Made by a program: the position numbers and the translations under genes
Assembly: GCA_030592845.1 (NCBI GenBank)
Contig: JAUVII010000014.1
Location: forward strand, 1-32,692
Direction: 5' to 3'
DNA length: 32,692 nucleotides
DNA from: Candidatus Krumholzibacteriia bacterium
Lineage (GTDB): Bacteria > Krumholzibacteriota > Krumholzibacteriia > LZORAL124-64-63
Shown: positions 1,229 through 26,193 of the stretch, one piece after another
Layout of the letters: every line of letters begins with the position of its first letter
How positions within the stretch are numbered: the first letter of the stretch is position 1
Notes under the pieces: generated by a model
Told to the model about the DNA's origin: nothing
The model's input: the letters and a program-made list of their open reading frames with translations, nothing else
The model's database searches: none

Positions 1229-1232
1229 AAAA

Positions 1233-4117: not shown

Positions 4118-4537
4118 ATGGAAGGCCAGATGGGAGTGCAGCGTTATTTGGAGGCGGATATCCAGTCGATATCCCGTGAAAAACTCCTGGTACTCCTGTA
4201 CGAAAAAATGGTCTCTGATCTAATGGAAGCCCGTCGGGCCATCCTGGCCGGTGACAGGATTCGCATGGCTGACCGCATCACGCACTCCCAGCAAATCATC
4301 GCGGAATTGCGCAGCGCCCTGGATCATTCCGTGGGTGGGGAGATTTCCGTTAATCTGGAAGCCCTGTACGATTTCCTGTTTCTGGAGCATTTGTGCATTC
4401 TGGTGGACCGGGAAGTCGTCAACATCGACAATTGCCTGGCGGTGCTGAAGCCCCTGCTGACCGCCTGGCGCCAAATTCCTGAAGGCACAGCGGACGAAGC
4501 AGGTCGTCCCCGTGTCGGACATTCGGTATCGGCCTGA
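4118..4537 (+). CDS. fliS: Flagellin export chaperone FliS
   Basis: FliS binds the flagellin C-terminus and prevents early polymerisation before export. The product is all-helical, about 139 residues. It carries the family signature QRYLEADIQSISREKLLVLLYEKM, like Y...I.tASPe.Ll.mLYdg in classical FliS, followed by SQQIIAELRSALDHSVGGEI and a helix with YDFLFLEHLCILVD. The start is uncertain. ATG 4118 follows GGGAG by 11 bases, and ATG 4130, which gives MGVQRYLEADI, follows GAAGG more closely and fits family N-termini as well. A GTG at 4067 inside fliD is unlikely. The C-terminus overlaps nothing; the next ATG is one base after the stop. Confidence 0.88.
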   Translation: MEGQMGVQRYLEADIQSISREKLLVLLYEKMVSDLMEARRAILAGDRIRMADRITHSQQIIAELRSALDHSVGGEISVNLEALYDFLFLEHLCILVDREVVNIDNCLAVLKPLLTAWRQIPEGTADEAGRPRVGHSVSA

Positions 4538-4538
4538 A

Positions 4539-4883
4539 ATGAAACTATTGGAAACAATCCAAACCGCCGGCGAACTGACGATGGAGTTGAACGCCCAATT
4601 GGAGTCCTCCGACCAGGAGACCTGGGAAGACATTCTGGGCAGGCGCGGCGAAGCCATGGACCAGTTGGAAATGGTACACAGAAATTCCTCGGAAAGTGAA
4701 CGGGAGTCCTGCCGGGGGGCACTGAAACAACTCCATCGGGATGATAAATTGCTCCGTCAGAAATCGGACGATATCCTCGGAATGCTGACTCTGGAAATCA
4801 GGGAGCGGTTGGGAAGGTCATCATACGTGGGTCATACTGCGGGTGGGGACACTCTCCAGGCCTGTCTCGACCGGAAAGCCTGA
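4539..4883 (+). CDS. FliT-like flagellar chaperone (putative)
   Basis: Small helical protein of 114 residues that starts one base after the fliS stop, so it is likely translationally coupled. Its placement after fliD-fliS is where fliT, the FliD chaperone, usually lies. Size, high charge and helical content (ETWEDILGRRGEAMDQLEMV, ALKQLHRDDKLLRQKSDDIL) agree with FliT/FlgN-type chaperones. FliT is poorly conserved and no diagnostic motif is visible, so the call rests mostly on context. ATG 4539 is chosen over GTG 4512, which would overlap fliS. The TGA at 4881-4883 directly abuts the csrA stop codon on the other strand, so the two messages must overlap unless each terminates inside its own gene. 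Confidence 0.6.
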   Translation: MKLLETIQTAGELTMELNAQLESSDQETWEDILGRRGEAMDQLEMVHRNSSESERESCRGALKQLHRDDKLLRQKSDDILGMLTLEIRERLGRSSYVGHTAGGDTLQACLDRKA

Positions 4884-5159
4884 TTACCCCCCACTTTTTC
4901 CGTGGCCTTTCTTATGACCGTCCTGTTTGTTGCCGTCCTGAATTTTTTTACGGATCCCATCCAGATCTACTTTCGTGGATTCCGCCGCATTCAGGGTTGA
5001 ACTCTTTATTTCTTCATAGATTTCGTGACGGTGTACCGGAATGGACCTTGGGGCATCGATGCCGATCTGGACCTGGTCACCGCGTATATCGACGATCATG
5101 ATGGAGATATTGTCCCCGATCATGATCTTCTCATTGCGTTTTCGGCTGAGTATGAGCAC
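4884..5159 (-). CDS. csrA: Carbon storage regulator CsrA (RsmA family)
   Basis: RNA-binding translational regulator of 91 residues. It is a canonical CsrA from residue 1: [18 protein letters not shown], then [11 protein letters not shown], and the RNA-binding strand [10 protein letters not shown] with Arg44. The core ends near residue 60; the rest is a charged Gly/Lys/His tail (ending [11 protein letters not shown]) longer than in the 61-residue E. coli protein. In fliW-bearing bacteria CsrA represses flagellin translation and is held off by FliW. The start is GTG, with GGGAGG just upstream. It lies 54 bp after fliW and is the last gene of the flgF-to-csrA operon. Its stop codon touches that of the convergent fliT-like gene. 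Confidence 0.96.
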
Positions 5160-5213
5160 GGGACCTCCCTGTCCTGTCTCCGGAACGCCACGCGGCGCTT
5201 ACGGGGGGTTGGG

Positions 5214-5807
5214 CTAAACCCCGGCGGGCTCGGGCGTTTCCACCTCGGGTCGGACCTCAGACTGACCGCTTTCGGATGAGGAATCAAGCACTTCCTGAAA
5301 AAGGGCTTGCACCGCATCCTGGCCAACTACTGATACTATATCATTCTCCGCTGACTGGCCATCAACCGCAAGCCCAAATTTCAAGTAATTGATTTCCTGC
5401 TGAACACTCAAGTCAGGGTCATCCAGTACCAGTTGCATTCCTTTGCGGGAATCGACGTTAACCACTAACGGGGCCAACATGTTACCGGTAATCCTGGTTC
5501 CGCCCTGATGAATAGTGCTGATAATCATTACCGCCAGCCATTCACCTTCCTGCCCCTGCAGGAGCTCGTGCGTGGCCGGAGGCAGGGGTATATCGTAGCT
5601 GTCCGCGAAAAACGCAGGCTGGCTCACTGGAAAGCCAAAATCGCCCCTGTCCAGGGATTGGAACCACTTCATGGGGATTTCATCACCCAATTCGAGGATC
5701 AACCAGTTGTGGAGATCCGGCATTCCCACCAGCCCTTCGGGCATATGGATCATGTCCTCCTCGCGGTAGGCGAGTTCTCCGAAGCGAACGGTCTGGAACT
5801 TAGGCAT
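5214..5807 (-). CDS. fliW: Flagellar assembly factor FliW
   Basis: FliW binds CsrA allosterically and also binds flagellin. When secretion draws flagellin away, FliW frees itself to inhibit CsrA, and flagellin translation resumes. The 197-residue product shows the family pattern: VRFGELAYREEDMIHMPEGLVGMPDL at the N-terminus (the F.G.i.f..GlpGF region), WFQSLDRGDFGFPVSQP, AVMIISTIHQGGTRITGNMLAPLVVN (like T.NLlaPivIN), and QLVLDDPDLSVQQEI. A C-terminal acidic tail of about 40 residues (SSSESGQSEVRPEVETPE) is extra compared with the roughly 150-residue classical FliW. The ATG has AAGGAG eight bases upstream. It sits between flgL and csrA, the usual order. Confidence 0.95.
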   Translation of the reverse strand: MPKFQTVRFGELAYREEDMIHMPEGLVGMPDLHNWLILELGDEIPMKWFQSLDRGDFGFPVSQPAFFADSYDIPLPPATHELLQGQEGEWLAVMIISTIHQGGTRITGNMLAPLVVNVDSRKGMQLVLDDPDLSVQQEINYLKFGLAVDGQSAENDIVSVVGQDAVQALFQEVLDSSSESGQSEVRPEVETPEPAGV

Positions 5808-5856
5808 TTCAGGCTCCTTGCTGGTCGGCGCCGTTCTGTCCGGCTCATCCGACGTG

Positions 5857-7398
5857 TTAACGCAGGTATTGCATCAAGTTGTTACCAAACAGTTTGCTGG
5901 TCACCAGCAAACTGGCCTGATAACTGGCTTGGGCCCTGCTCAGGTCTGCGGCCACACGGGCCACATCAACATCACGTTCCAAAGAAAGATTGGTGCGCAG
6001 CCGTCCATCCCGCTGACGCAGGATCCCTTCGGCCCAATCGAGATCATTCTGCCGGCCACCGTTTTTTACCAGCAACCCGGTCAAGGTCCGGCCCAGGGAC
6101 ATCAGTTCGCCAACGGCGCCATGGACAGCATCCTTGTCTCCGGCAATCAGTGCCGTTTGGAGGTCTTCCATGATCCCGAACATCCTGGAGGGGGTTCCTT
6201 CACCGCTTATTCCCAAAGCCGTGGCCGTGCCGGAAGCATCACCATCCCTGATGGTGAAGGCGGCGGAACTCGGTCCAACCACCTGCAGATACCCATCCAG
6301 AAGGGTCAATTCCATGCCGGGCATGACCGTGGCAAACTGGTCCTGTAGATCGCCCAGGGTTACCGCCGCCCCCAGGTTGAGGTTGGTGACTCCCCCTTCC
6401 CACAGGATATCAATTGACCCCAGGGGCAGTTTCCCGGTCAAAGCGGAAATATCACTCAGCAGCGTATCGGAGTCCGGGGCGCTCCGGATATCGGATCCCC
6501 TCAGGGTTCCGCCGTCCGTGGAGGTATTGATGCCCAGGGACCCGGCCGTGGTTCCACCGGAGACTTCCCCAACCTTCAGGGGTCCGGTTCCGTTGATGAC
6601 AAGACCATTTCCGTCGGGCCCGATATCCACCGTGACAGTGCCCTTGGTGCCTGCCTCGATGCGGCTCATCACGTCGCCGATCGTCACCGCGCCCGTCAGG
6701 TCGATCTCGTGTACCAACCCCGATCCGACCGTTATGGAGATCGAGCCGGTGTTCCAGCCTTCCCCCAGGTTCAGGTCCGCCAAAAGGGTTGAATCCAGAA
6801 GATCCGGCCCCAGATTGACAGTCCCCGGCAGGCTGGAAGACTGGCTCCCCATGAAGATGTCGCCGGCAATATTCAGGATCATTGTGGAATTCGGACCAGT
6901 TCGCCCGGTGATGTCCCCGCCATCCCCCACATAGGTGACCGACCCACCGTTGAAAATGAATGGAGCATCTTGAGTGCGCTGTCCGGCAAAAATGTAATGG
7001 CCTTCGATGGAGGTGTTCAGCAACTCCATCATCCTCCCCACCAGGTTTTTCACTTCCTCGGCGGAGTTGGTCATGGTTTCGCTGTTGGCCAGGGACGAGG
7101 ATTCCCTCAGGGCGATGACGCGCACATCGGCGAGAATTTCACTCAGATCCTGCAGAGCTATATCCGTCCCGTCAACCAGGGTCCGGCTGCGGCTGACATT
7201 GGTCAGATAACTTTCATTCCGGGTAATGAGGGCGTTCAGCCGCTGCATGATGCCGACGGCCCGGGGATCATCGGCATAGGAATTCACTCGCTGCATACTG
7301 CCGGCCATCCGCTGCTGCTCCAGCAGGGAGGCAAGGCTGCGATTGAGATCACCCACCATGATCGCCGAAAGATAGCTGTCGGTAATGCGAATGGTCAT
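5857..7398 (-). CDS. flgL: Flagellar hook-associated protein 3 (hook-filament junction)
   Basis: FlgL forms the ring that joins the FlgK ring to the filament. The ends are flagellin-like: MTIRITDSYLSAIMVGDLNRS with SYADDPRAVGIMQRLNALI at the start and LSRAQASYQASLLVTSKLFGNNLMQYLR at the end. It has 513 residues, long for FlgL (often 300-400). The extra length is a central insert with two flagellin-hook IN-like repeats, about residues 207-291 (IDLTGAVTIGDVMSRIE to TTAGSLGI) and 315-398 (LNLGAAVTLGDLQDQF to GTATALGI). A linker with SDIRSAPDSDTLLSDISAL separates them. The gene starts 15 bp after flgK and ends 49 bp before fliW. Confidence 0.94.
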   Translation of the reverse strand: MTIRITDSYLSAIMVGDLNRSLASLLEQQRMAGSMQRVNSYADDPRAVGIMQRLNALITRNESYLTNVSRSRTLVDGTDIALQDLSEILADVRVIALRESSSLANSETMTNSAEEVKNLVGRMMELLNTSIEGHYIFAGQRTQDAPFIFNGGSVTYVGDGGDITGRTGPNSTMILNIAGDIFMGSQSSSLPGTVNLGPDLLDSTLLADLNLGEGWNTGSISITVGSGLVHEIDLTGAVTIGDVMSRIEAGTKGTVTVDIGPDGNGLVINGTGPLKVGEVSGGTTAGSLGINTSTDGGTLRGSDIRSAPDSDTLLSDISALTGKLPLGSIDILWEGGVTNLNLGAAVTLGDLQDQFATVMPGMELTLLDGYLQVVGPSSAAFTIRDGDASGTATALGISGEGTPSRMFGIMEDLQTALIAGDKDAVHGAVGELMSLGRTLTGLLVKNGGRQNDLDWAEGILRQRDGRLRTNLSLERDVDVARVAADLSRAQASYQASLLVTSKLFGNNLMQYLR

Positions 7399-7413
7399 GT
7401 CACGTCCTGCCCT

Positions 7414-8784
7414 TTACACGATTGCCAGGAGAGTGTCGTACATCTCCTGCACGGTGGCGATCACCTTGGCTGCGGCGTTATAACTGTTTTGGAAGCGGAC
7501 CAGATTGGCGCCTTCTTCATCCAGGCTCACTCCGCTGACGCTGGCCATCCGGGCCGAAAGCGAAGCCACCACGCTCAGTTGATTTTCCACCATGAACCCG
7601 AAACTGTTGAGTTTGCCGGCCACGTCGGTAACAACCGACCGGTAGGATTCGTTGATGGATTTCCGCGCCGGCCCGACCAGGCTGCTTCGGCCAAGGTCGG
7701 CAATGGCCAGGGCGATTTCGTTGTCGGCGGCCGCACCTGTCGTGCCGGTGGCCACCAGACTTTCATTGTTCAGGAGGGACTCGTTGACTCCGATGGTGCT
7801 CATGCTGTCGCCGGTGAAAAACATCACGCCGCGCCCACCGGACGTCAGGCCCTGGGTGTGCAGATTGTTCACTTCGGTAATCAGCTGCCGCGCCACGGCG
7901 TCCAACTGTTCACGGACCGCGGTGACATGAACGTCCCGCGCAGTCAGAAGCCCTTGCAGCTTGCCGGGCGAGAGGTTGACGTCCTGCTGGTTCCCGGCCG
8001 TCACCACGGCAAAGGTGTAGCCGTCGCCATCGGGACGGTAGATACCTTCAAAAAGGGTGACCCTGTCCCGCGCGACCATCGTGCGCCCGGCCAGGATGAT
8101 GTCCTTGGAGCCGTCCTCGCGCTCCAGAACCGATACCTCGGCGAGTTCCGCCAACTGACTGATGCGAAGATCCCTCTGGTCCCGCAGATCGTTGGCCGGA
8201 TGCCCGTTGGATTCGGCTGCCATGACCTGTCTGTTCAATTCGCCGATATCCCGGAGAAGACGGTTGAGGTTAGCGGTTTCGGCCTGGATGTTCTTTTCCA
8301 GATCCGTTTCCAGCCCCCGCAGGGCTTCTTCGATGGCCCGAAAGTCCGCCACCAGCGTCTCGGCTTTTGAGACCACGTTGAGTTTCAGGCTGTCGTTGAC
8401 CGGAGGTTGCGCCAGATCGTTCCAGGCGGAAAAGAAATTGTTGAGGGCATCGCCAAGATGGTCGTTGTCTATGGAACCCAGAATCCCCTCGATGTCGTAA
8501 AGCGCGGTGTCGACCGCGGCGTAGGAGTGAAGCCGGGAAGTCTGCACTCTCATGTTGTTGAGGAGGAATTCATCCTGAATGCGGCGAATCCCCAGGACTT
8601 CGACCCCGCGACCGATGGAGCCGTATCCCAGAATTTCCGCCCGCCGCGTTCCGAAAATGACATCCTGCCGGTTGAAACCGGGAGTGTTGGCATTTGCGAT
8701 GTTGTGCCCACTGGTGGCAAGACCCGCCTGGGCGGCCAGAAGAGCCGAAAGGCTGTTGTCCATGATGGCGTTCAGTCCGGACAT
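7414..8784 (-). CDS. flgK: Flagellar hook-associated protein 1
   Basis: FlgK makes the first junction ring on top of the hook. The N-terminus has the rod/hook family helix LAAQAGLATSGHNIANANTPGFNRQDVIF, and the C-terminus ends with SGVSLDEEGANLVRFQNSYNAAAKVI, both diagnostic. A long coiled-coil region lies between (IEEALRGLETDLEKNIQAETANLNRLLRDI). At 456 residues it is somewhat shorter than the roughly 550-residue enterobacterial protein, and shorter than its partner FlgL here, which reverses the usual size order. The ATG follows GAGAGGA. It is 11 bp after flgN and 15 bp before flgL. Confidence 0.96.
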   Translation of the reverse strand: MSGLNAIMDNSLSALLAAQAGLATSGHNIANANTPGFNRQDVIFGTRRAEILGYGSIGRGVEVLGIRRIQDEFLLNNMRVQTSRLHSYAAVDTALYDIEGILGSIDNDHLGDALNNFFSAWNDLAQPPVNDSLKLNVVSKAETLVADFRAIEEALRGLETDLEKNIQAETANLNRLLRDIGELNRQVMAAESNGHPANDLRDQRDLRISQLAELAEVSVLEREDGSKDIILAGRTMVARDRVTLFEGIYRPDGDGYTFAVVTAGNQQDVNLSPGKLQGLLTARDVHVTAVREQLDAVARQLITEVNNLHTQGLTSGGRGVMFFTGDSMSTIGVNESLLNNESLVATGTTGAAADNEIALAIADLGRSSLVGPARKSINESYRSVVTDVAGKLNSFGFMVENQLSVVASLSARMASVSGVSLDEEGANLVRFQNSYNAAAKVIATVQEMYDTLLAIV

Positions 8785-8795
8785 TGGTCGTCCTC

Positions 8796-9323
8796 TCAGG
8801 CTTGCCGCACGAGCACCCCACCGGGGCCGCTGCGTGTGTTTTGGGCATCGCCGTCGTAACAGCCGGCCGGGTTGTCCAGCACGGCGTCCTTGAATATTTC
8901 CGCTTCTTCGTGAACCAGGTCCAGGCAGAATTCCGCCAACAACCGGTTCAATTCATTTTGCCGGGCAAGTTTGGCGGCGGTCCGACGGACACCGCCCAGG
9001 GCACTGGCCACGGTACGCTTGGTTTCGGGTTCCGTGTAGTCCAGGAGGTCTTCCACTCCGTGGGGAGGAATGCTCAGGTCCATGCGTTTTGCCAGCTCTC
9101 CGACGTACCTTTCCCGGGATATCCGGGCCTCGTTGGCCAAAGGCAGGTAGCGGGCCCATTCCCTGGCGTTGGCCTCCAGGCGGTCCACATCTTGCCGTTG
9201 CATGTAAGAATTCTGACGCCAGGCCAACCTTAAAAGGCGGCGATACTGGTGACTTTCTTTGTCCAGAATGCTCCCCAAACGGCGGCAATCTTCATTTTCG
9301 AGCCTGGTGTTGTCCTTTGGCAT
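8796..9323 (-). CDS. flgN: FlgN family chaperone (putative)
   Basis: Helical protein of 175 residues directly upstream of flgK and flgL, whose export chaperone in other bacteria is FlgN. Helix-rich segments are SILDKESHQYRRLLRLAWRQ, the heptad-like DVDRLEANAREWARYL, and a C-terminal helix (LARQNELNRLLAEFCLDLVHEE) that resembles the FlgN substrate-binding region. The last residues (GPGGVLVRQA) are probably flexible. The in-frame start at 9425 is replaced by ATG 9323, which follows GGAGG. FlgN is weakly conserved, so context carries much of the weight. Confidence 0.75.
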   Translation of the reverse strand: MPKDNTRLENEDCRRLGSILDKESHQYRRLLRLAWRQNSYMQRQDVDRLEANAREWARYLPLANEARISRERYVGELAKRMDLSIPPHGVEDLLDYTEPETKRTVASALGGVRRTAAKLARQNELNRLLAEFCLDLVHEEAEIFKDAVLDNPAGCYDGDAQNTRSGPGGVLVRQA

Positions 9324-9363
9324 TTCCGAATGTCCTCCGTGAAACTGTCCCAATTGACGGGTT

Positions 9364-10233
9364 CTATGGGCCTGATGACGCCAGATGCGTGCCACCACCC
9401 AGGTTTTTGTACCTATCCAGAACACTTTTTACATAGCGCCGTGTTTCAGGGTAATCGGGTACGCGGCCTCCCAGGCGTTTAACGGTTCCCGGTCCGGCGT
9501 TGTAGGCAGCCAGGGCCACATCCAGCTTGCCCGCGAATTTCTCCAGCATATCGGCCAGATACCGCGCCCCGCCTTCGAGGTTCTGGGCCGCGTCCGTCCG
9601 GTTGGCGACCCCCAGCTCCCGGGCGGTGTCGGGCATCAATTGCATCAGGCCCAGGGCCCCCTTGGGAGAACGGGCTTCAGGATCGCCGCCCGATTCTTCC
9701 ATGACCACCGACAGGATGAGGGCGGGGTCCAGACCGGAACGCCGCGCGGCTGTTTCAATTTCAGAGCTGAACCGGCTCAACGTGTCCGTGACAGCCGTTC
9801 CCTGGTTGGCCGCCAAAATGGCCAGCCGTTTGTGAGCCACGGTTTCAGGGGCAGAAAGCTCCATGGCCCTGTAACGCTCCAGGGCCGAGGGTGCAGGGGG
9901 GCCGAAAGAAGGTCTTGCAGGAGGGCTTTCCACGTTATCCTGATCCGAATCCCGGGAAAGCTGCCGCACGATCATGTCGGCAATGCCCATCCCGCCATGT
10001 CCGTCGGCCATGGCCCGGGCGATTTCCGCATCGTGCATCTGCTGGTAGAATTTGGTTGCGCCCCCGCCGTTGAAAAGATCGTTGACCGGAACCGTCTGCC
10101 GCATGGCTTTCAGCAGGGTATTCAGAAAGACACCTTCGAATTCCCGCGCGGATTCTTCCAGACGCACCTGCTCCGTGTGGTCACCAGCTACGGTGACCAG
10201 TGGGTTCAGCAGCGTCTGTCCCGGGATTTCCAT
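9364..10233 (-). CDS. flgJ: FlgJ-type rod cap protein with lytic transglycosylase domain
   Basis: Rod assembly cap plus peptidoglycan hydrolase, 289 residues. The N-terminal 100 residues are the FlgJ rod-binding domain (EESAREFEGVFLNTLLKAMRQ, then FYQQMHDAEIARAMA and GGMGIADMIVRQL). A Pro-rich linker at about 103-117 leads to a transglycosylase SLT (GH23) domain. That domain has the catalytic Glu180 in VVMEESGGDP, the motif SPKGALGLMQLMPDTA, and AYNAGPG at 243-249. In enterobacterial FlgJ the C-terminal hydrolase is an unrelated glucosaminidase-type domain, so the cell-wall-cutting half here comes from a different family. No signal peptide is visible, as expected for a type III export substrate. 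It follows flgI by 19 bp. Confidence 0.93.
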   Translation of the reverse strand: MEIPGQTLLNPLVTVAGDHTEQVRLEESAREFEGVFLNTLLKAMRQTVPVNDLFNGGGATKFYQQMHDAEIARAMADGHGGMGIADMIVRQLSRDSDQDNVESPPARPSFGPPAPSALERYRAMELSAPETVAHKRLAILAANQGTAVTDTLSRFSSEIETAARRSGLDPALILSVVMEESGGDPEARSPKGALGLMQLMPDTARELGVANRTDAAQNLEGGARYLADMLEKFAGKLDVALAAYNAGPGTVKRLGGRVPDYPETRRYVKSVLDRYKNLGGGTHLASSGP

Positions 10234-10252
10234 CTGCGGTTCCTGGTCCCTT

Positions 10253-11389
10253 CTACATCAGAATGAGTTCGGCCTGCAGCGATCCGGCCCTTTTCAGGGC
10301 TTCCAGAATGGCGATGATATCCCTGGGGCTCGCCCCGATATCATTCAGGACACCTACGACATCCGCCACAGTGCTGGTATCGGGTACACGCAGGACCCGG
10401 GCATCGCGGTCTTCCACATCCGTGTTGATATCCGGCACCACGACAGTATCTCCCCGCCGGCTGAAGGAACTGGGCTGGGAAACGTCGTAATAGGTGCTGA
10501 CGACAACCTTCAGGTTCCCATGAGCCACCGCGGCTTCCTTGAGCTTGACGTTTTTCCCAACGATGATGGTGCCAGTACGCTCATTGACAACCACCCTGGC
10601 GACGGCATCGCTGCGGGCGGTGAGTTCGCTCATCCGCGCGATGAATCCCACGGGATTCGTATTTTCTTCCACCGGGATGGTCACCAGAATACGCTGGGAA
10701 TCCTTGGCCTGGGCCGTTCCCTGTCCATACAGGGCGTTGATGGACGTAGCGACTTCGGAGGCGGTAATGAAATCCGGATTGTGCAGCAGCCAGGCCACCT
10801 GCCCGCCACGCATGAAGCTCCCGTTCAGCTTGACCTTTACCGACCCGCCGTTGGTGACGAGACCGGCCTGGGTGTGGTTTTTCCGGTAGCTGTTTCCGGC
10901 CCCTGACTTCACATTGAATCCACCGATGGAAACACTTCCCTGGGCCAGGACGCACAGGGTACCGTCGGCAGCCCGTAACGGTGTCATGACCAGATGCCCG
11001 CCTTCAAGGCTGGTCGCATCGTTCAGGGAACTGACCTTGACGTCAATTTTGCCGCCCACATTGAGATTGGGATCCAGGGTGCCGGTCACGATAACGGCAG
11101 CCACGTTTTTTGCCTTCAGGTCCCGGGGGCTGATGGTCACATCCAGTTTTTCCAGCAGGGTGGCGATGGAATTTGCCGTGTTTTCCACGGAATATCCGTC
11201 ACCCGTTCCATTGAGTCCCACAACCAGGCCATAACCGACCAGGGGTTCCTCAGTGGTGCCCTCCAGGTAGGCCAGGTCCTTGATACGGGAATTGTCCTGG
11301 GCCATGACGGGATTGGCGTGCCAGCTGAAGGCAACCACACAAACCAGAACCGCGTAGCCCGTCCATTTCGACCGCGAATTTCCGAACAT
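10253..11389 (-). CDS. flgI: Flagellar P-ring protein
   Basis: Periplasmic P-ring subunit of 378 residues that forms the bushing around the rod in peptidoglycan. A Sec signal peptide (hydrophobic AVLVCVVAFSW, cleavage near PVMA-QD) precedes the FlgI body: SRIKDLAYLEGTTEEPLVGYGLVVGLNGTGDG, VAAVIVTGTLDPN, GGHLVMTPLRAADG and, near the end, TVADVVGVLNDIGASPRDIIAILEALKRAGSLQAELILM, all strongly conserved. The ATG at 11389 has AGGAGG seven bases upstream, and that site overlaps the flgH stop; the in-frame start at 11422 is rejected. It is coupled to flgH (10-bp gap) and followed by flgJ. Confidence 0.97.
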   Translation of the reverse strand: MFGNSRSKWTGYAVLVCVVAFSWHANPVMAQDNSRIKDLAYLEGTTEEPLVGYGLVVGLNGTGDGYSVENTANSIATLLEKLDVTISPRDLKAKNVAAVIVTGTLDPNLNVGGKIDVKVSSLNDATSLEGGHLVMTPLRAADGTLCVLAQGSVSIGGFNVKSGAGNSYRKNHTQAGLVTNGGSVKVKLNGSFMRGGQVAWLLHNPDFITASEVATSINALYGQGTAQAKDSQRILVTIPVEENTNPVGFIARMSELTARSDAVARVVVNERTGTIIVGKNVKLKEAAVAHGNLKVVVSTYYDVSQPSSFSRRGDTVVVPDINTDVEDRDARVLRVPDTSTVADVVGVLNDIGASPRDIIAILEALKRAGSLQAELILM

Positions 11390-11399
11390 CCTGTTCCTC

Positions 11400-12023
11400 C
11401 TAGAACAACCAGTTGAGTACACGGGTCACTACCCCCGGCTTGGAAGTGTCGTTGATGATGCCCGAGCCGTTGTAGGCGATCTGGGCGTCCGAGATGTAGG
11501 TGCTGAGAATGGTATTGTCGGCCCCGATGTCCCGCGCGCGGCAAATTCCGGTGATTTCAATCAGCTGTTTTTCACCGTTGATGTTGACCATACGGGTCCC
11601 TTCCAGCCGCAAATCCCCGTTGGCAAGAATTTCGACGATACGCGCCGACATTTCCGTCCGCAGGCTGCCGCTGCGCTGGGTGTTCCCATCCCCGAGATAC
11701 TCGTTTTCAACGGTCATGTCCCAGGGTTTGATGAAATGCAGCCACCCGAGGGCCGGCCCGCCCCTGGTTTCACTCTTGTTGTTCGCCTTGGTCTTGCTGG
11801 CGGCATTGGCCGTCGCGCGTTCCGTAATGATGATGGTGATCAGATCACCCTCTTTCCGGGCCTTGATGTTGGACACCAGGGATTCCCCGGTATCGAAATC
11901 CACCAGGGGAGTCTTTGCCTCGACGATCTCCACGGCAAAAAGGGTCACCATAAGACACCCCAGGACTAACGGCAGGGCCGTTTTCCCCACGGGAATACTT
12001 TGCAAAGCGTTCATCGGATTCAT
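11400..12023 (-). CDS. flgH: Flagellar L-ring protein
   Basis: Outer-membrane L-ring subunit of 207 residues. Family motifs are clear: GDLITIIITERATANAASKTK, FIKPWDMTVENEYLGDGNTQRSGSLRTEMSARIVEILANGDLRLEG, INGEKQLIEITGICRARDIGADNTILSTYISDAQIAYNGSGII. Classical FlgH is a lipoprotein. Here the leader has a cysteine (VLGC, about residue 23) in the middle of the hydrophobic run rather than at its end, so it is unclear whether it is lipidated or cut by signal peptidase I after IVEA. The ATG at 12023 has GGAG eight bases upstream and lies one base after the flgA stop. Confidence 0.96.
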   Translation of the reverse strand: MNPMNALQSIPVGKTALPLVLGCLMVTLFAVEIVEAKTPLVDFDTGESLVSNIKARKEGDLITIIITERATANAASKTKANNKSETRGGPALGWLHFIKPWDMTVENEYLGDGNTQRSGSLRTEMSARIVEILANGDLRLEGTRMVNINGEKQLIEITGICRARDIGADNTILSTYISDAQIAYNGSGIINDTSKPGVVTRVLNWLF

Positions 12024-12024
12024 T

Positions 12025-12981
12025 TCAATTTCTCCATTCAACGATTCCGGGACCCGCAACACGGGCGTTGACCAGCCGTCCGGTAACTTCACTGCGGACG
12101 GGTATGGTTTGACCAAGGCAGCCGCTCTGCCGGGCGATTGCCCGGACCGTGACCGCCACCTGTCCCCTGCTTATCTGCAACTCGACCCGATCACCGGCCA
12201 CTACGATGGGCGTGATCTTCAAATCCGCTTCCCGGAGGAAGGCTCCGGCCTTCAGCTTCCTGGTGCTGCTGGCCCCATGCGTACTGGCCCGGGTTATGGA
12301 AAGACCGCGTTTCTGGTCGGCCAGGTCGCGCCATTCCCAGTCGAACATGTTTTCTTCCAAAGGCCGGTCCCGGGGTATATCCGAGATGGCACGGCCCACT
12401 TCTCCGAACTGGTGCAAGGTAACCGTCACCGGGAAACTCTCTTCCCTGTTCTGGTCCACCACGGTGACACGAACGAGGTTGCGGCCCGGAGCCAGTAATT
12501 CTTTTCTTTCGCACTCGATTTTCCAGTTTCCCGCGGCCGCCAGCCTCACTGGCGGCAGGTCCAGTTCGAACCAGGAATCCGGGGCCCCGGGATAGGCCGG
12601 GGGTACAAATAGCTGGATTTGCCTGGTCACTTCCCGATGGAGGTTTTCGGGTGTCACTTCGGTGCCCGAGAACACCAGGTGGCACCGTTCGCTCCCGGCG
12701 AACCGCACCCCACCGGCCAGCCCCGCGGTGACCAGACGGCGGAGAATGTCCCTTCTCGAAACCGTCACGACTCCGTTGGGTTTCAGTCCGGCCCGGATGA
12801 CCAGGTCCTGCACATTGGCGGGAACCGGCCCCCTGCTCAGATCACCCAGTGTTGCCACATCGTGGTCCAGGACAAGCGTGTCGGGCAGCGTCAGGTTCCA
12901 GTTGCCGGCCGCGCACACCGATCCGGCGGATGCCATCAGGATCAGGGTCAAGGCCAGGCATTTAAGTTTACGGTCCATCAT
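12025..12981 (-). CDS. flgA: Flagellar P-ring assembly chaperone FlgA
   Basis: Periplasmic chaperone for FlgI, 318 residues, longer than the 219-residue E. coli protein because of an extended N-terminal half. A signal peptide (LKCLALTLILMASAGSVCA-AG) starts the protein. The C-terminal SAF-like region has ISDIPRDRPLEENMFDWEWRDL, TRKLKAGAFLREADLKITPIVVAGDRVELQ and GQVAVTVRAIARQSGCLGQTIPVR, then the typical ending VRSEVTGRLVNARVAGPGIVEW. The start is a double ATG (12981 and 12978) that directly follows the flgG stop with no gap, with AAAAGG just upstream. It is coupled to flgH downstream. Confidence 0.92.
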   Translation of the reverse strand: MMDRKLKCLALTLILMASAGSVCAAGNWNLTLPDTLVLDHDVATLGDLSRGPVPANVQDLVIRAGLKPNGVVTVSRRDILRRLVTAGLAGGVRFAGSERCHLVFSGTEVTPENLHREVTRQIQLFVPPAYPGAPDSWFELDLPPVRLAAAGNWKIECERKELLAPGRNLVRVTVVDQNREESFPVTVTLHQFGEVGRAISDIPRDRPLEENMFDWEWRDLADQKRGLSITRASTHGASSTRKLKAGAFLREADLKITPIVVAGDRVELQISRGQVAVTVRAIARQSGCLGQTIPVRSEVTGRLVNARVAGPGIVEWRN

Positions 12982-13773
12982 CTACCTTTTGAGGCGGTTT
13001 ACGGTCTGCAGCATCTCGTCGGCCATGGTGATGGTCTTCGAGTTCAATTCGTACGCCCGCTGGGCGGAAATCATGCTGACCAGTTCATCCACCGTTTCCA
13101 CGTTGCTCATTTCCAGGAATCCGGAAGCGGTTTCCCCCATGCCGTTTATTCCCGGGGTATCCAGGATGGGACGTCCACTGGCGGGAGTTTCCACAAACAG
13201 GTTCCCACCGCGCGCCATCAGGCCGGCTGCGTTGGGAAAGCGGGCGAGCTCCAGCTGCCCGATCTCCTGGACATTGGCGTCGTCACCCTGGACCATCACG
13301 CTGATGATCCCGTCCCGGGCAACGGAAAGTTCAAGTGCATCCTCGGGAATTTGAACGGCCGGTTCGAGACGGTAGCCGGATGAGGTAACGATGTTGCGGT
13401 CGGCATCCATCTTGAAGGTGCCGTCCCGCGTGTATTTGATGGTGTCGTCCGCCAGGCGCACCTGGAAGAATCCATCGCCTTCGATCATCAGGTCCAGGGG
13501 ATTGCCGGTGGAAATCACGGTACCCTGGCTGAAGTTCTTGTTGGTGGCCACCAGCTTTACGCCGTGCCCGATCTCGATCCGGACGGGCAGGGCCCTGCCT
13601 TCGGCGTCCACCTGGCCGCCGGGCATCACCTTTTCATAGAGGAGATCCTGGAATTCGGTATGGCTCTTCTTGTAGCCGGTCGTATTTACGTTGGCCAGGT
13701 TGTTGGCGATGGTATCGATGTTCATCTGCTGGGCCTTCATTCCCGAGGCCGCGGTTCCCATTGCTCTGATCAT
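12982..13773 (-). CDS. flgG: Flagellar distal rod protein
   Basis: Distal rod subunit of 263 residues, near the family norm of about 260. It opens with MIRAMGTAASGMKAQQMNIDTIANNLANVNTTGYKKSHTEFQDLLYE, the hallmark rod N-terminus. The central domain has GHGVKLVATNKNFSQGTVISTGNPLDLMIEGDGFFQV and YTRDGTFKMD, and the end is SNVETVDELVSMISAQRAYELNSKTITMADEMLQTVNRL. All are at the expected places, so the call is secure. The ATG follows GGAAGGTG. It is 33 bp after flgF and abuts flgA with no gap. Confidence 0.97.
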   Translation of the reverse strand: MIRAMGTAASGMKAQQMNIDTIANNLANVNTTGYKKSHTEFQDLLYEKVMPGGQVDAEGRALPVRIEIGHGVKLVATNKNFSQGTVISTGNPLDLMIEGDGFFQVRLADDTIKYTRDGTFKMDADRNIVTSSGYRLEPAVQIPEDALELSVARDGIISVMVQGDDANVQEIGQLELARFPNAAGLMARGGNLFVETPASGRPILDTPGINGMGETASGFLEMSNVETVDELVSMISAQRAYELNSKTITMADEMLQTVNRLKR

Positions 13774-13806
13774 TGGCTTTCACCTTCCGTGAAAAATCGA
13801 CTGCCG

Positions 13807-14568
13807 CTATCCGCTCACGCGCGGCAGGTTGTTGACAGATTTCTCCAGCATCTCGTCTTCGGTCGTCATGACCTTGCTTTGAATCTCGAAGGCCCTCTGG
13901 GCGGCGATCATCGCGATGAGGGTATCGATGGGATTCACATTGCTCCCCTCGAGATGACCCTGGGCAACCACCACTTCGGCCGTATCCAGAACCCGCTGTT
14001 CCATATCGGCCGGCGGAACGACCAGGCTCGCGCCCAGATGTTCCAACCGCGTGGGGTCGGCGAATCCAACCAGTTTCAGGCTGTCGGTCTTTTTGCCGTC
14101 CACCATGATCGAGCCGTCGTTGGCGATGGTAAATTCCTCGCCCTTAAGTAGAATCGGGCCCCGTTCTCCCATCACGGCATGACCGTCGGGTGTGGTCAGC
14201 CGCTGCTCCGCGTCCAGGAGAAAGGATCCATGACGTGTGTAAGCCGGTCCGTTCTCCGTACTCACCTCGAAATAGCCCGCGCCAATGATGGCCACATCCG
14301 TATCCCGACCGGTTGCCTGTACGGACCCGGGACGATTGTCCAGGGCGTGATACATCTGCAATCGGGTTCCCGCCATCCGCCGGGGTCCCAAAACCGGACT
14401 GGAGCCTGATTGCCCCTCCTGCAGTTCCGTTTGGGTCATCTCGGCCACCCTGGTCAGGATCTGCTTGAACCCGGCGGTATTGACGTTCGCCAGGTTGTTG
14501 GCCAGGGCATCGATCCGGTTCTGCTCCAACATCATGGCGTTTTCAGCAGTGTTGAGGCTTCTGATCAC
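13807..14568 (-). CDS. flgF: Flagellar proximal rod protein FlgF
   Basis: Proximal rod subunit of 253 residues, paralogous to FlgG. Motifs: LNTAENAMMLEQNRIDALANNLANVNTAGFKQI at the N-terminus, RDTDVAIIGAGYFEV, YTRHGSFLLDAEQRLTT, and the C-terminal SNVNPIDTLIAMIAAQRAFEIQSKVMTTEDEM. The probable start is GTG at 14568, giving VIRSLNTAE, with AAAGGA seven bases upstream; starts further out (14622) would add non-homologous residues. It is the first gene of the 11-gene flgF-to-csrA operon and lies about 40 bases downstream of a sigma54-like element. Confidence 0.93.
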   Translation of the reverse strand: MIRSLNTAENAMMLEQNRIDALANNLANVNTAGFKQILTRVAEMTQTELQEGQSGSSPVLGPRRMAGTRLQMYHALDNRPGSVQATGRDTDVAIIGAGYFEVSTENGPAYTRHGSFLLDAEQRLTTPDGHAVMGERGPILLKGEEFTIANDGSIMVDGKKTDSLKLVGFADPTRLEHLGASLVVPPADMEQRVLDTAEVVVAQGHLEGSNVNPIDTLIAMIAAQRAFEIQSKVMTTEDEMLEKSVNNLPRVSG

Positions 14569-14616
14569 GCTTATTCCTTTCGGCAGGTACACCTGTCCTA
14601 CTTCCTGAACGCAGCA

Positions 14617-14634
14617 GGGCAAGGCTCATGCCGT
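14617..14634 (-). promoter_or_regulatory. Sigma54-like promoter upstream of flgF
   Basis: Read on the minus strand, CGGCATG-AGCC-TTGC resembles the sigma54 (RpoN) consensus TGGCACG-N4-TTGC: the invariant GG and GC are exactly ten bases apart. A start near 14608 would leave a 40-base leader to the flgF GTG. RpoN drives rod and ring genes in many polarly flagellated bacteria. Two mismatches and the lack of a visible activator gene keep this tentative. Confidence 0.4.
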
Positions 14635-21244: not shown

Positions 21245-21754
21245 GACTACCTCCAAGGAACAACGAGGCCAAGTGGCCGCAGTTTTAGCTGGACCAGAGT
21301 GTATTTCACTACCTTGGCCCAATCGAACATTGGACTCAAGGAATGTTTATCCAAAAACATTTTTGATTTAATTTCCTACATTGCAAGGAGTTCAAATCAT
21401 TCGGAATTTACCCGCTTTCCGGGAAAGGTATTTCTGCCAAAAAATTAACAAGGGCCCAGTTTTTTATTTTGATAGGGGTAATCAATATATTGATAAACCA
21501 TTGATCCTCCGAAAACCCACACCAGTTAGCTGTTATTTTACAATCTGTTACATGGTTTTAAAAATGATATGGGATTCATTTTCATTACCAGACCGGGAAT
21601 GTTTCGTGACTAATTTTATCCACTTTAATCATTCCTTGCCGACAGGGCTCAGATACTCAAAGTTTCGATTTAAATTTACAGTTAAGTCGTAGGTGTTCTC
21701 TAAAGGTGCCGCTACTGGGGCCCATAACAGCCGGGAAACCGGCGGAGGTTCAAA
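21245..21754. other. 510-bp AT-rich divergent intergenic region (sppA / cytochrome operon)
   Basis: This stretch is visibly richer in A and T than its neighbours and has no credible gene. It separates sppA (leftward) from the cytochrome operon (rightward), so it should hold both promoters. A weak candidate for the operon is TTTACA (21675-21680) with TCTAAA (21699-21704). A perfect 14-bp palindrome at 21481-21494 is listed separately. Confidence 0.5.
21481..21494. promoter_or_regulatory. Perfect palindrome ATCAATATATTGAT, possible operator
   Basis: A 14-bp perfect palindrome lies in the AT-rich region, with further TTGAT half-sites at 21469-21473 and 21501-21505. TTGAT is the half-site of CRP/FNR-type regulators, but here the halves point outward (ATCAA-N4-TTGAT), opposite to the FNR box TTGAT-N4-ATCAA. 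It may be an operator for a redox regulator of the cytochrome operon. It is about 260 bp from the first gene. Confidence 0.3.
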
Positions 21755-22171
21755 ATGAAATTCAACACGTCGCTCAAGGTGCTTCTCGTCCTGATGATTC
21801 TCACGGGTCTGGCCGTTACCGCCATGGCCGAGGACAAACCGGAACCCAAGGCTGAGAAGATCGACAGTGAGGTCGAGATCAAGGAAATCGATGTCAAGAA
21901 GATGGACGGCAAGGCGCTTTTCATCGCCCACTGCAAGGTCTGCCACATGGAAGACGCGGATGCCGGCGAGTACACCCCCATTTCCCTGATCATGGACCAG
22001 TGGGACGAGTTCTACGACGAGACTTTCGCCGAGACCCACAAGGAAGTGGCCTGCCCGAAGGACAAGGACAAGAAAGTCACCGACATGATCACCAAGGATA
22101 TGATCAAGAAGCTGCGCAAGTTCTGCGTGGACCACGCGGCTGACAGCGAACAGCCCATGACCTGCGGTTAG
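21755..22171 (+). CDS. Small periplasmic monohaem cytochrome c
   Basis: Exported protein of 138 residues with a Sec signal peptide (LKVLLVLMILTGLAVTAMA-ED). One haem-binding motif is present: Cys60-Lys-Val-Cys63-His64 in IAHCKVCHMEDA. Several methionines downstream (66, 80, 111, 116, 135) could be the sixth ligand. Three extra cysteines (100, 124, 137) lie in the C-terminal half, within KEVACPKD, LRKFCVDHA and PMTCG; they could form a disulfide. A Lys/Glu-rich linker follows the signal peptide. Probably an electron carrier between the inner membrane and the octahaem protein encoded downstream. ATG 21755 follows GGCGGAGG. It is the first gene of a three-gene operon. Confidence 0.85.
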   Translation: MKFNTSLKVLLVLMILTGLAVTAMAEDKPEPKAEKIDSEVEIKEIDVKKMDGKALFIAHCKVCHMEDADAGEYTPISLIMDQWDEFYDETFAETHKEVACPKDKDKKVTDMITKDMIKKLRKFCVDHAADSEQPMTCG

Positions 22172-22179
22172 ATTTCAGC

Positions 22180-22222
22180 GGCCGCGGCAGCGGCCCTTTA
22201 CCGGGTCCGGAAATTATTCCGG
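22180..22222 (+). promoter_or_regulatory. Tandem hairpins between cytochrome and porin genes
   Basis: Two short perfect stems follow each other: GGCCGC/GCGGCC (22180-22185 with 22190-22195, loop GGCA, then CTTT) and CCGGAA/TTCCGG (22207-22212 with 22217-22222, loop ATTA). They fill much of the 99-bp gap. They may attenuate or process the message so that the small cytochrome is made in excess. The function is inferred. Confidence 0.4.
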
Positions 22223-22270
22223 CCTGACCACCCCAAGGCGAAAGCCTATTTCAACCCCGGAGGGGCGGAA

Positions 22271-23902
22271 ATGAAAAAGACGTTGATCACTCTGCTGACT
22301 CTTATTGCCGTATTCGCCATGGCGACCGGCGCCTTTGCCGAGAAAGACACGGATGCCAAACTCAAGGCTCTGGAGAAGCGTTTGCAAAGTCTGGAGCAGA
22401 AATCCGCCAAGGACCGCATCCAGTGGACGGGCGATCTGCGGGTCGAGGCCCACAGTATTACCGGTGAAGTGGATGCCTATACCGATGGTATGCGTGTCCA
22501 GGCTCTGACCTATGGGGCCATGTTCATGGCCATGAATATGGAAAACCCCACCGACCCCGCTACGATTGACCAGTATATCGGTGAGCATTACGCGGAGTTC
22601 CAGGTATTCCGCTCCATGAACGACTTCCCCGAAGTCAAGGATTGGGTCCAGGAGATGATGGCTACCAATCCCAACATGGGCGCCATGATGATGGCCTTCA
22701 TGCAGGATGCCGCCCGTGAAGGTTTCAAGACCGACAACAGCATCCTCTACACCACCCGCCTGCGCCTGAACATGGACGCCAAAGTGGCCAAGAACGTGGC
22801 CTTCAACGGCCGTTTGAGTATGTACAAGCCCTGGGGTGCTTCCACACAGACAGGCGTTTTCAACGGTCAGGCCAATACCATGAACACCGACGCCGCCTGG
22901 CCCGGAGTTCCGGGTGACGCCACCCTCCGAGTCGACCGCGCCTATTTCACTTGGAAGAACATCGCCGATGTGCCCCTGTACCTCAGCCTGGGCCGCCGCC
23001 CGAGCACCGATGGTCCCCCCATGCACTATCGTAACGATGAAGTGCGCGCGGGCACGCCCATGGGCACCATCATCGACATGCAGTTCGACGGCGCCACGCT
23101 GGGCTACAACTTCGGTTCCAAGACCACGGTCAGGGCCTGCTACGGTCTGGGTTACGAATCCCAGTACGGTAACGGTTCCCTGGACAGGGATGCGGCACTG
23201 AAGGACGCCCACTTCTTCGGATTCAACATCGACGCCTACAACACGCCGGAAATGCAGATCCAGACCACCATCGCCCGGGCTTTCGATATTACCGACGGTT
23301 ACGCCGGCAACATCATCATGCCCAACGATCCGGTGAGCGGACAGGCCATGCCCGGGCCCATCGTGACCAGGTTCAGCCCTTCGGCCAACCTGGGCGACTT
23401 CGACGTAGCCAGCGTTTTGCTGGCCCGTCGTGACGGCCCCATTGACTGGTTCGTGACCGGCAGTTGGAGCCAGAGTCATCCCGATGATGGGGTCACCGGA
23501 CCCTTCGGCGGGTTGATGAGCGGACCCTACGACAATCCCGAGAGCCAGACCGGCGACATGTACTATGTGGGAGCCCGTTTCAACTTCAACGATGAGAAAA
23601 CCAAGGTTGGCCTGGAGTGGAACAAGGGGTCCGAGTACTGGTTCAACTTCGCCCCCAGCCAGGATGACCTCGTTGCTCCCAAGACCAGCACACGCGGTAC
23701 CGTTTGGGAAGGTTACACCACCCACCGCATCAGCCGCCGGTTCGTGGTCAAGCTGGCCTACATCAACTACAATTACGATTACACGGGATCCGGCTGGCAC
23801 GTGGGTGCACCGGCAGAACTGGGCGACACGCCTGCCATCCAGGGCTTCCCCACCTACTCCAAGGTCGGAAAAGTCTCACTGGGCTTCAGCGCCAGGTTCT
23901 AG
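22271..23902 (+). CDS. DUF3373-type outer-membrane beta-barrel porin
   Basis: Outer-membrane protein of 543 residues with a signal peptide (TLITLLTLIAVFAMATGAFA-EK). A short coiled coil follows (KLKALEKRLQSLEQKSAKD), then strand-rich sequence beginning IQWTGDLRVEAHS and ending GKVSLGFSARF, with a terminal Phe as in barrel proteins. The segment RVDRAYFTWKNI and LYLSLGRRPSTDGPPMHYRND, then FDGATLGYNF, matches the DUF3373 porin family as I recall it. A Met-rich stretch at about residues 77-90 and 132-150 is unusual. Its place between two cytochrome genes suggests a channel that serves the respiratory module, for substrate entry or as a porin sheath. The ATG follows GGAGG. Confidence 0.8.
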   Translation: MKKTLITLLTLIAVFAMATGAFAEKDTDAKLKALEKRLQSLEQKSAKDRIQWTGDLRVEAHSITGEVDAYTDGMRVQALTYGAMFMAMNMENPTDPATIDQYIGEHYAEFQVFRSMNDFPEVKDWVQEMMATNPNMGAMMMAFMQDAAREGFKTDNSILYTTRLRLNMDAKVAKNVAFNGRLSMYKPWGASTQTGVFNGQANTMNTDAAWPGVPGDATLRVDRAYFTWKNIADVPLYLSLGRRPSTDGPPMHYRNDEVRAGTPMGTIIDMQFDGATLGYNFGSKTTVRACYGLGYESQYGNGSLDRDAALKDAHFFGFNIDAYNTPEMQIQTTIARAFDITDGYAGNIIMPNDPVSGQAMPGPIVTRFSPSANLGDFDVASVLLARRDGPIDWFVTGSWSQSHPDDGVTGPFGGLMSGPYDNPESQTGDMYYVGARFNFNDEKTKVGLEWNKGSEYWFNFAPSQDDLVAPKTSTRGTVWEGYTTHRISRRFVVKLAYINYNYDYTGSGWHVGAPAELGDTPAIQGFPTYSKVGKVSLGFSARF

Positions 23903-23914
23903 AAGGAGTTTTGC

Positions 23915-25321
23915 ATGAAGTTAGCAGCGACCATTGCGATGTCGCTGGTGATTGTTGTCCTGGCGGCCGGGGATTCCTCGGCCGCCAGGCGTACCTACTC
24001 TCACCAGGACGACTACTTCGAACACTACGAAGGCACGGCCACCTGTCTGGAATGCCACGAGGAAGAAGCCGAGTCCTTTTTCCACAGCCAGCATTACCAG
24101 TGGCGGGGGCAGTCCCCCAACATCGTCAACGCCGATGGTGAGATGCTGGGCAAGATGAACACCATGAACGATTTCTGCACCAACCCCTTGGCCAGTTGGA
24201 TCGGCAACGCCGTGAATGTCGAAGGCAAAGTCATCGCGCAGGGTTGTTCATTGTGCCACGCGGGCCTTGGCAAGAAGCCGTCCCCGGTATTGAGCCGTGA
24301 GCAGCTCGAAAACATCGATTGCCTGATCTGCCACGCATCCGGCTACCGCCGCGACCTCTACCAGGATGAAAATGGCGAGTGGGAATGGCGTCCCATCCTC
24401 TGGAAAAACCAGGTTGGCCTGGATTCGGTTTCCAAACGCATCACCATGCCCGAACGCAAGATGTGCCTGCGCTGTCACGCTGGAGCCGGCGGCGGCCAGA
24501 ACTTCAAGCGCGGCGATATCGAATACGAACTGGCCGACTGTTCGCCCGATTTCGATGTCCACATGGCCACAGAGGGCAACGATTTGCACTGCGTGGATTG
24601 CCACGCGGGCGACGACCACCGGGTCCGTGGACGCGGGTCGGATCTTTCGGGCACCGACAGCCCGGACAACCCTCTGTACTGCACCAGCTGTCACGATGAG
24701 AAGCCACATGGCGTCAAAGCCCTGGACCACCATACGGACCGTCTCAACTGCACCGTCTGCCACATCACGGAATTCGCCAAGTCCGACAAGACGGACATGA
24801 AACGCGACTGGTCGACGCCGCTGCATCACGAGATCGCCAACAAGTATTCCGCCACCATCACCTTTGGTGAAAATGTGGTTCCGGTCTACGCGTGGTTCAA
24901 CGGGAACACCCGCCTGATGAAGATGGGCGACGAGGTGGAGTTCGACGACGACGGCACCGTGACCATCATGGCGCCCCAGGGCAACCGCAAGGACAAGAAG
25001 GCCAAGATCAACGCCTTCAAGCTCCACGAGGGTGTCCTGCCCATTCTCAAGGACCAGAAGTGGCTGATCCCCATCGCCGTGGATGAATTCTTTATCGACG
25101 GTGATATCGAGAAAGGTGTTCGTGAGGGGGCCGCGGCCGCCTACGACATCCACGATCCCGAATACGAGTGGGTCAAGACCAAGCGTTACATGGGAATCTT
25201 CCATGAAGTAAGGCCGGCGGACAAGGCCCTGCAGTGCCTGGACTGCCACCGTGAAGGCGGGCGCATGGACTGGCAGGCGCTGGGATACAAGAAAGATCCT
25301 CTGCTCGACGCCATGGACTGA
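23915..25321 (+). CDS. Octahaem c-type cytochrome, OTR-like family
   Basis: Exported 468-residue protein (signal peptide through DSSA-AR, no lipobox) with eight CxxCH motifs at residues 44, 111, 136, 184, 226, 256, 279 and 441. The order and spacing resemble octahaem tetrathionate reductase (OTR): a first haem followed by a hydrophobic segment with FFHSQHYQW, then MNDFC (Asn85, Cys88), which aligns with the OTR active-site Asn/Cys pair, and GGGQNFKRGD (Lys198), which aligns with the segment carrying the lysine ligand of the catalytic haem. OTR reduces tetrathionate, nitrite and hydroxylamine in vitro; the physiological substrate is uncertain. The OTR aspartate three residues before the lysine is Gln195 here. 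It starts 12 bp after the porin gene behind AAGGAG. Family assignment is from memory of the motifs. Confidence 0.85.
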   Translation: MKLAATIAMSLVIVVLAAGDSSAARRTYSHQDDYFEHYEGTATCLECHEEEAESFFHSQHYQWRGQSPNIVNADGEMLGKMNTMNDFCTNPLASWIGNAVNVEGKVIAQGCSLCHAGLGKKPSPVLSREQLENIDCLICHASGYRRDLYQDENGEWEWRPILWKNQVGLDSVSKRITMPERKMCLRCHAGAGGGQNFKRGDIEYELADCSPDFDVHMATEGNDLHCVDCHAGDDHRVRGRGSDLSGTDSPDNPLYCTSCHDEKPHGVKALDHHTDRLNCTVCHITEFAKSDKTDMKRDWSTPLHHEIANKYSATITFGENVVPVYAWFNGNTRLMKMGDEVEFDDDGTVTIMAPQGNRKDKKAKINAFKLHEGVLPILKDQKWLIPIAVDEFFIDGDIEKGVREGAAAAYDIHDPEYEWVKTKRYMGIFHEVRPADKALQCLDCHREGGRMDWQALGYKKDPLLDAMD

Positions 25322-25341
25322 AGTCCAAAAATAGAATTTGG

Positions 25342-25390
25342 AAAAAACCGGCGCCGCCGTTGAAAAACAACGATGGCGCCGGTTGTTTAT
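25342..25390. terminator. Bidirectional intrinsic terminator
   Basis: AACCGGCGCC (25346-25355) pairs with GGCGCCGGTT (25375-25384), and inside it CGTTG (25358-25362) pairs with CAACG (25368-25372) around an A5 loop. An A-run precedes the stem and TGTTTAT follows, so both strands have a U-tract. It serves the cytochrome operon and the convergent lipoprotein gene. Confidence 0.8.
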
Positions 25391-25392
25391 AA

Positions 25393-26193
25393 TCACTTAC
25401 CGATATATATGTTCTCAACCGGCCAGGCGTCCCAGTTGTCATTGTTATGTGGCTGAGGTACGGCAGTGTTGATCTGGGTTGCCCGAGCATTTCCCCAGGT
25501 CCCCTCGGGATACCCCGTGGCCTCGTGAAGGACACCTTCGGCCTTGCACTTCAGGCCCAGAAACTCGACATACATGTTCTCTTCCGGGAAGAAGCTGACC
25601 TCGATCAGGTCGGGCATCGGCATGCCCGGCTCCGGCATGACGAACTTGAGATTCAGACTCACGGTACCCAGGGCCGGCTCCATCCCGTCATAGGCAACGG
25701 CCTGAGGGGAGTATCCGAACAGGGGGTCCCACGTGTCCCAGTTGAGGCCCCAGATCAAGGCTTCAGTTGCCCTCAGGGTGACATGGACCAAGGCAGTACC
25801 ATCGCCGCGAACCCTTTCGGTCACTTTACCTGTAATTACTGTGCCGATATCGACTGCGCCCCCGGTTTCGCTGTACAGCCAGGCGGCACCCAGACCGGCA
25901 TAATCAGGCCACAGGGCGTACCACGTATCCGGGTTATACCACACGGTGTAGTTGGGCACCGGATCATTGAAAATGAAACACCCGCCTTCACCGTCAGCCC
26001 AACAATAGGTTCCCTGAGCAGCAAGCCAGTCATCGAAGGGACGGGTTACGGCTTTGCCAAGTTCTTCTGTTTTCGAGACACCGGAAGTTGCGGGTTGGGT
26101 CACTTCACTTGAGCAGGATGCCAACAGGGCGATGATGGCAATGGCGATAGCCAGGAAAAGGCCAAGCCTGACAGGATTGGATTTGATATTCAT
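25393..26193 (-). CDS. Lipoprotein of unknown function
   Basis: Predicted lipoprotein of 266 residues with a clear lipobox: LLASC, Cys27, followed by SSE. The mature part is rich in Trp, Tyr and Gly and looks like beta-rich secreted sequence: WYNPDTWYALWPDYAGLGAAWLYSETGGAVDIGT, VTERVRGDGTALVHVTLRATEALIW, MYVEFLGLKCKAEGVLHE. Two further cysteines (CWADGEGGCF) near residues 64-72 could form a disulfide. I do not recognise a family. It has its own upstream region, with GGAGG six bases before the ATG, and converges on the cytochrome operon through a shared terminator. No neighbour suggests a role. Confidence 0.75.
   Translation of the reverse strand: MNIKSNPVRLGLFLAIAIAIIALLASCSSEVTQPATSGVSKTEELGKAVTRPFDDWLAAQGTYCWADGEGGCFIFNDPVPNYTVWYNPDTWYALWPDYAGLGAAWLYSETGGAVDIGTVITGKVTERVRGDGTALVHVTLRATEALIWGLNWDTWDPLFGYSPQAVAYDGMEPALGTVSLNLKFVMPEPGMPMPDLIEVSFFPEENMYVEFLGLKCKAEGVLHEATGYPEGTWGNARATQINTAVPQPHNNDNWDAWPVENIYIGK

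Follow-up and report, generated by a model that had tools for sequence, protein, structure and literature searches.

OTR is an octahaem cytochrome that reduces tetrathionate, nitrite and hydroxylamine (PMC4484225), and in Acidobacteriota (Ca. Sulfomarinibacter) an otr gene is up-regulated 36-fold with tetrathionate (PMC8528874). At the otr locus of Shewanella, SO4142 encodes a periplasmic monohaem cytochrome and SO4144 is otr (PMC5955497); one gene lies between the two in locus L218 of this study, and SO4143 is thus probably a DUF3373 gene. The route of tetrathionate-like anions to periplasmic reductases is usually credited to unspecified porins, and our literature search, which had most subscription papers outside its reach, returned no paper that names SO4143 or discusses a porin of the otr locus.

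The three genes described here correspond to this otr locus, SO4142-SO4144. They are found in the window (the whole stretch of 32,692 nucleotides that was analysed), which derives from a Candidatus Krumholzibacteriia MAG of 3.7 Mb (82% complete), and encode a monohaem cytochrome (g1), a DUF3373 barrel (g2) and an octahaem cytochrome (g3). The earlier note on this DNA was aware of no named system made up of these parts; however, the Shewanella locus (PMC5955497 for SO4142 and SO4144) has the same three families in the same order and on one strand, with the active-site Lys and Cys of the octahaem conserved. There are two differences: the window octahaem is only about 31% identical to OTR, with insertions and a score below the TIGR04315 cut-off, and the MAG of the window has, in addition, a separate canonical OTR without DUF3373.

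Genes and products of the window locus

Table 1. Features of the three-gene locus, with positions in the window
Feature	Position	Strand	Remarks
g1, periplasmic monohaem cytochrome c, 138 aa	21755-22171	+	one CxxCH, Sec-type signal
g2, DUF3373 outer-membrane barrel, 543 aa	22271-23902	+	PF11853, E 7e-109
g3, octahaem c-type cytochrome, divergent OTR family, candidate terminal reductase, 468 aa	23915-25321	+	eight CxxCH
Intrinsic terminator hairpin after g3	25346-25384	+	fold -32.6 kcal/mol, z -6.37 vs shuffles

A tight three-gene operon closed by a strong terminator had been claimed, and both parts are borne out: the three ORFs share one strand with gaps of 99 bases (g1-g2) and 12 bases (g2-g3), a GGAG-like site precedes each start codon, and the hairpin stands out clearly against shuffled sequences (Table 1). 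As the hairpin sits between convergent genes (the other at 25393-26193), it may serve as terminator for both. An Rfam search of the window matched no RNA family. Positions 1213-14622 of the window appear, as judged from sequence, to hold largely flagellar and CsrA-type genes (flagellin, hook-associated, FliW-like and rod proteins).

The g1 protein matches Pfam family PF00034 with an E value of 9.5e-5, above the family cut-off. Its haem motif CxxCH spans residues 60-64 and its C-terminal HAADSEQPMTCG contains Cys137. Across 46 homologues, the only invariant residues are C60, C63, H64, P75, Q82, W83, D130, P134, T136 and C137. A distal Met ligand, as in class I cytochromes, has no invariant candidate among 70 g1 sequences and the usual His/Met ligation is therefore unlikely; possible conserved ligands are only C137 and, in most sequences, H95. 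Our guess is that the haem is ligated by His/Cys. A fold search with a model of g1 (pTM 0.51) gave only chance-level matches to cytochrome c6.

The g2 protein scores 365 bits against PF11853 (cut-off 26.1), has an N-terminal signal and a coiled-coil helix and ends in Phe543, as outer-membrane barrels do. AlphaFold2 predicts, with moderate confidence (pLDDT 76.7, pTM 0.74), a barrel of 16 strands that carries a helix at its N-terminus and a helical insertion separating strand 1 from strand 2. The best Foldseek matches of this model are porins (OmpM1, AlgE, OmpF, PorB). Six near-invariant arginines (R57, R163, R165, R181, R223 and R288) are on the predicted lumen side, as are conserved acidic residues. 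The DUF3373 profile also matches a solved structure, 10aw ('50 kDa outer membrane protein'; 7e-31), and the match covers the greater part of the barrel. We take 10aw to be, probably, Omp50 of Campylobacter; Omp50 is cation-selective, and this selectivity of a probable solved relative is a poor fit to an anion pore. DUF3373 has been placed under TCDB 1.B.62 (PMC4827864). Its relation to the Omp50/PBP porins (TCDB 1.B.60 and 1.B.62; PDB 10aw) is nevertheless distant: TCDB gives 18 strands for these, compared with 16 in the g2 model, and no tie to a reductase is known for the solved relative. The porin ExtI was rejected as a relative of DUF3373: it is grouped with the OprO/OprP phosphate-selective porins (PMC5877670).

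The description of g3 as an OTR-like eight-haem enzyme stands as far as the eight CxxCH motifs and the OTR family are concerned, but g3 is a divergent member. It reaches 306.7 bits against TIGR04315 (E 3e-91), below the curated cut-off of 375 bits, compared with 606.4 bits for the Shewanella copy and 569.7 bits for another octahaem of its own MAG (contig C291). It matches 1sp3, the solved OTR, at E 1.3e-71 and its eight motifs are collinear with the haem motifs of 1sp3; it nevertheless forms a separate type, in which extra residues are inserted between haems 1 and 3 and also behind haem 3. K198, C88 and N85 of g3 align with K153, C64 and N61 of OTR and are invariant in 13 orthologues; in OTR, Lys153 and Cys64 belong to the catalytic haem. 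Octahaems that appeared as '7-haem' proteins are not a CxxCK nitrite-reductase-like variant: haem 6 uses CX3-4CH instead.

The C291 octahaem (L065, G000:C291, 6681-8228, minus strand) is the second one of the MAG, a canonical OTR about 50% identical to 1sp3. No recognised DUF3373 gene lies near it or near any other canonical-type gene that was read in the phylum, indicating that OTR does not need such a porin. A third octahaem (L066, G000:C180, 2678-4606, minus strand) of 642 aa has an N-terminal hydrophobic stretch and is distantly OTR-like; matches resembling it are found in many genomes of the window's family.

Distribution of the trio and exchange of the reductase

A scan with the DUF3373 profile, with one genome per species, yielded 80 loci. 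All three gene families are present in 63 of these (including five loci whose third gene is only a distant relative of about 700 aa), and on one strand in all 63. The organisms are Krumholzibacteriota, Acidobacteriota, Kiritimatiellales, several gammaproteobacterial MAGs and Shewanella. Within the window's phylum, 28 of 80 genomes have DUF3373, nearly all of them from the window's own family; the trio is complete in 22 of the 28 g2-positive loci read, again always on one strand (22/22), and most of the remaining loci are truncated at the end of a contig or come from two genomes in which a different reductase is present. Starting from the octahaem gives a similar picture: a DUF3373 gene is directly upstream of 16 of 17 close g3 homologues (one acidobacterial order). 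The one-strand arrangement in all full-trio loci, at family level and in the scan, indicates that the linkage is not due to chance. Absence of linkage outside this genome had been set beforehand as refuting the proposal of a module; linkage was found across several phyla.

The trio is also present in Shewanella. DUF3373 lies directly upstream of OTR in 30 of 30 OTR loci read, preceded by the monohaem gene wherever the locus extends far enough, and the adjacent octahaem shares about 80% identity with 1sp3. Among 98 Shewanella genomes searched, one has an OTR that is identical to 1sp3 over the 421 residues compared; the gene order at its locus is monohaem cytochrome, DUF3373, OTR.

The tetrathionate-induced otr of Ca. 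Sulfomarinibacter may be of the DUF3373-linked type as well. The two qPCR primers used for this gene fall in frame and 193 bp apart in a gene of the DUF3373-linked type, with 7-8 mismatches in total, and one of them falls on TKNSRG, within a stretch that is absent from canonical OTR. None of 37 genomes of the order contains an exact match to the primer pair; the link thus rests on in-frame approximate sites and the primer evidence is suggestive only.

The g1-g2 pair is found beside four types of partner: the divergent octahaem of the window type, at the majority of loci; canonical OTR, in Shewanella; a PhsA/PsrA-like Mo enzyme that is TAT-exported and accompanied by an FeS protein and an NrfD-type membrane subunit; and a cytochrome of about 700 aa with 7-8 haems. 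The DUF3373 tree, which was made quickly and without bootstrap and in which two long branches meet, requires 7 or more switches of partner type, compared with a possible minimum of 3 and a mean of 28 after shuffling. The Mo enzyme is like PhsABC/PsrABC (CISM family) and replaces the octahaem beside g1 and DUF3373 in Acidobacteriota and in two other genomes of the window's phylum; it is absent from the window, and its matches score 577-598 compared with a PhsA cut-off of 694. This recurrence of the monohaem-DUF3373 pair beside four reductase types seems to be undescribed.

Several further genes adjoin these loci. A NapC/NirT-type quinol dehydrogenase gene lies directly 3' of the octahaem in two gammaproteobacterial MAGs (L160, 2993-3523; L178, 9303-9803). 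PAS and sigma-54 activator genes, possibly regulators, adjoin the Mo-enzyme module in L073 (1801-4077) and L074 (1752-3548; the Pfam check of these domains covered L074). A decahaem gene is downstream of the octahaem in L120, L132, L133, L135 and L159, of DmsE/GSU2203 type where tested (L132), and in L120 and L135 the next gene after the decahaem encodes a protein of 570-610 aa without Pfam match, which could be part of a separate MtrAB-like conduit.

Proposed function and alternative readings

We favour, with moderate confidence, a module in which a periplasmic terminal reductase is served by an oxyanion porin and a monohaem carrier of its own. The DUF3373 barrel would pass a small soluble oxyanion across the outer membrane. 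A sulfur oxyanion, for instance tetrathionate or thiosulfate, is the most likely substrate, with nitrite or hydroxylamine as further possibilities. Reduction would take place in the periplasm on the octahaem g3, whose Lys-ligated haem and neighbouring Cys would act as they do in OTR, and g1 would deliver electrons from the quinol-side chain to g3; alternatively, g1 may handle the sulfur substrate via its invariant C-terminal Cys. A quinol-fed enzyme would fit the NapC/NirT genes found after the octahaem at loci L160 and L178. The Mo-enzyme version is another soluble-substrate reductase with no multihaem wire and supports a module built around a substrate porin. The near-invariant lumen arginines and the partner switches on the DUF3373 tree point the same way, as does, tentatively, the tetrathionate-induced otr of Acidobacteriota. 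Speaking against this reading are the canonical OTR genes that lack a DUF3373 neighbour, the cation selectivity of Omp50 and the conserved acids of the predicted lumen.

The earlier note had left the choice between a periplasmic reductase with its own porin and an electron conduit across the outer membrane; the linkage, the OTR active-site residues, the 16-strand model, the exchange for a Mo enzyme and the NapC genes all favour the reductase. For a conduit, the octahaem or g1 would have to sit in the barrel and pass electrons to an outside acceptor such as a metal oxide, as in MtrCAB. A porin gene beside genes of multihaem and other c-type cytochromes is the layout of known conduits such as MtrCAB and OetABI, and also of the ExtI porin cluster (PMC5877670, PMC10553843), and some Thermoanaerobaculia have a DmsE/GSU2203-type decahaem after the octahaem. 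However, the known conduits have larger barrels and surface cytochromes. MtrB has 28 predicted strands (PMC5877670) and the large barrels of MtrCAB-type conduits, which enclose a multihaem cytochrome, have 26-28, while the g2 model has, at moderate confidence, 16, and its top fold matches are solute porins. The cassette (21322 to 25393) encodes no surface lipoprotein cytochrome (the Sec signals of g1 and g3 lack a lipobox), the MAG, at 82% completeness, has no detectable MtrB_PioB relative, and the Mo-enzyme version has no multihaem protein to serve as wire. Because the barrel is predicted to be narrow, a surface cytochrome is absent and the Mo version lacks a wire, we consider a conduit unlikely.

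The electrons could also flow the other way, with the octahaem or its swapped partner oxidising a reduced sulfur or nitrogen compound, g1 acting as acceptor and the electrons passing on to an oxidase. The invariant Cys of g1 does recall the His/Cys cytochromes of sulfur oxidation, SoxXA and TsdA. Relatives of the octahaem, for example HAO, are oxidative (PMC8840924). An oxidative role is still unlikely: g3 has the active-site Lys and Cys of the reductase OTR, two loci have the quinol dehydrogenase as partner, and the otr of Acidobacteriota is induced by tetrathionate. Similarly improbable is that the barrel is no substrate route at all but has a general or stabilising role in the outer membrane, such as export of the product, a function in the envelope or anchoring of the cytochromes. 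The TCDB relatives of DUF3373, the Omp50/PBP families, are characterised either as general or as having no known substrate (PMC4827864), and no role is known for the N-terminal coiled coil and helical insertion of g2, but DUF3373 is repeatedly and specifically linked to respiratory reductases of several types.

Returning to the module with its own porin, the finding of pore and carrier beside differing reductases suggests a reusable substrate-supply module. A broader version of this reading is possible, albeit somewhat doubtful: the His/Cys-type monohaem cytochrome and an oxyanion-selective DUF3373 porin would be a general 'front end' reused with unrelated reductases (OTR, divergent octahaem, PhsA-like Mo enzyme and the multihaem cytochrome of about 700 aa), so that several phyla would need a dedicated outer-membrane pore in order to respire bulky sulfur oxyanions. 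As far as we could find, the literature holds no description of a dedicated outer-membrane pore step for such enzymes. Should a single barrel family serve this step and remain paired with its small cytochrome while reductases are exchanged, its genes would mark such respiration in the genomes of uncultured phyla. The proposal would be directly testable in Shewanella, whose copy of the trio includes the solved OTR. One Shewanella genome offers a natural test case for the need of the porin: at locus L207 the OTR is intact, but the DUF3373 gene upstream of it falls into two ORFs and is apparently broken.
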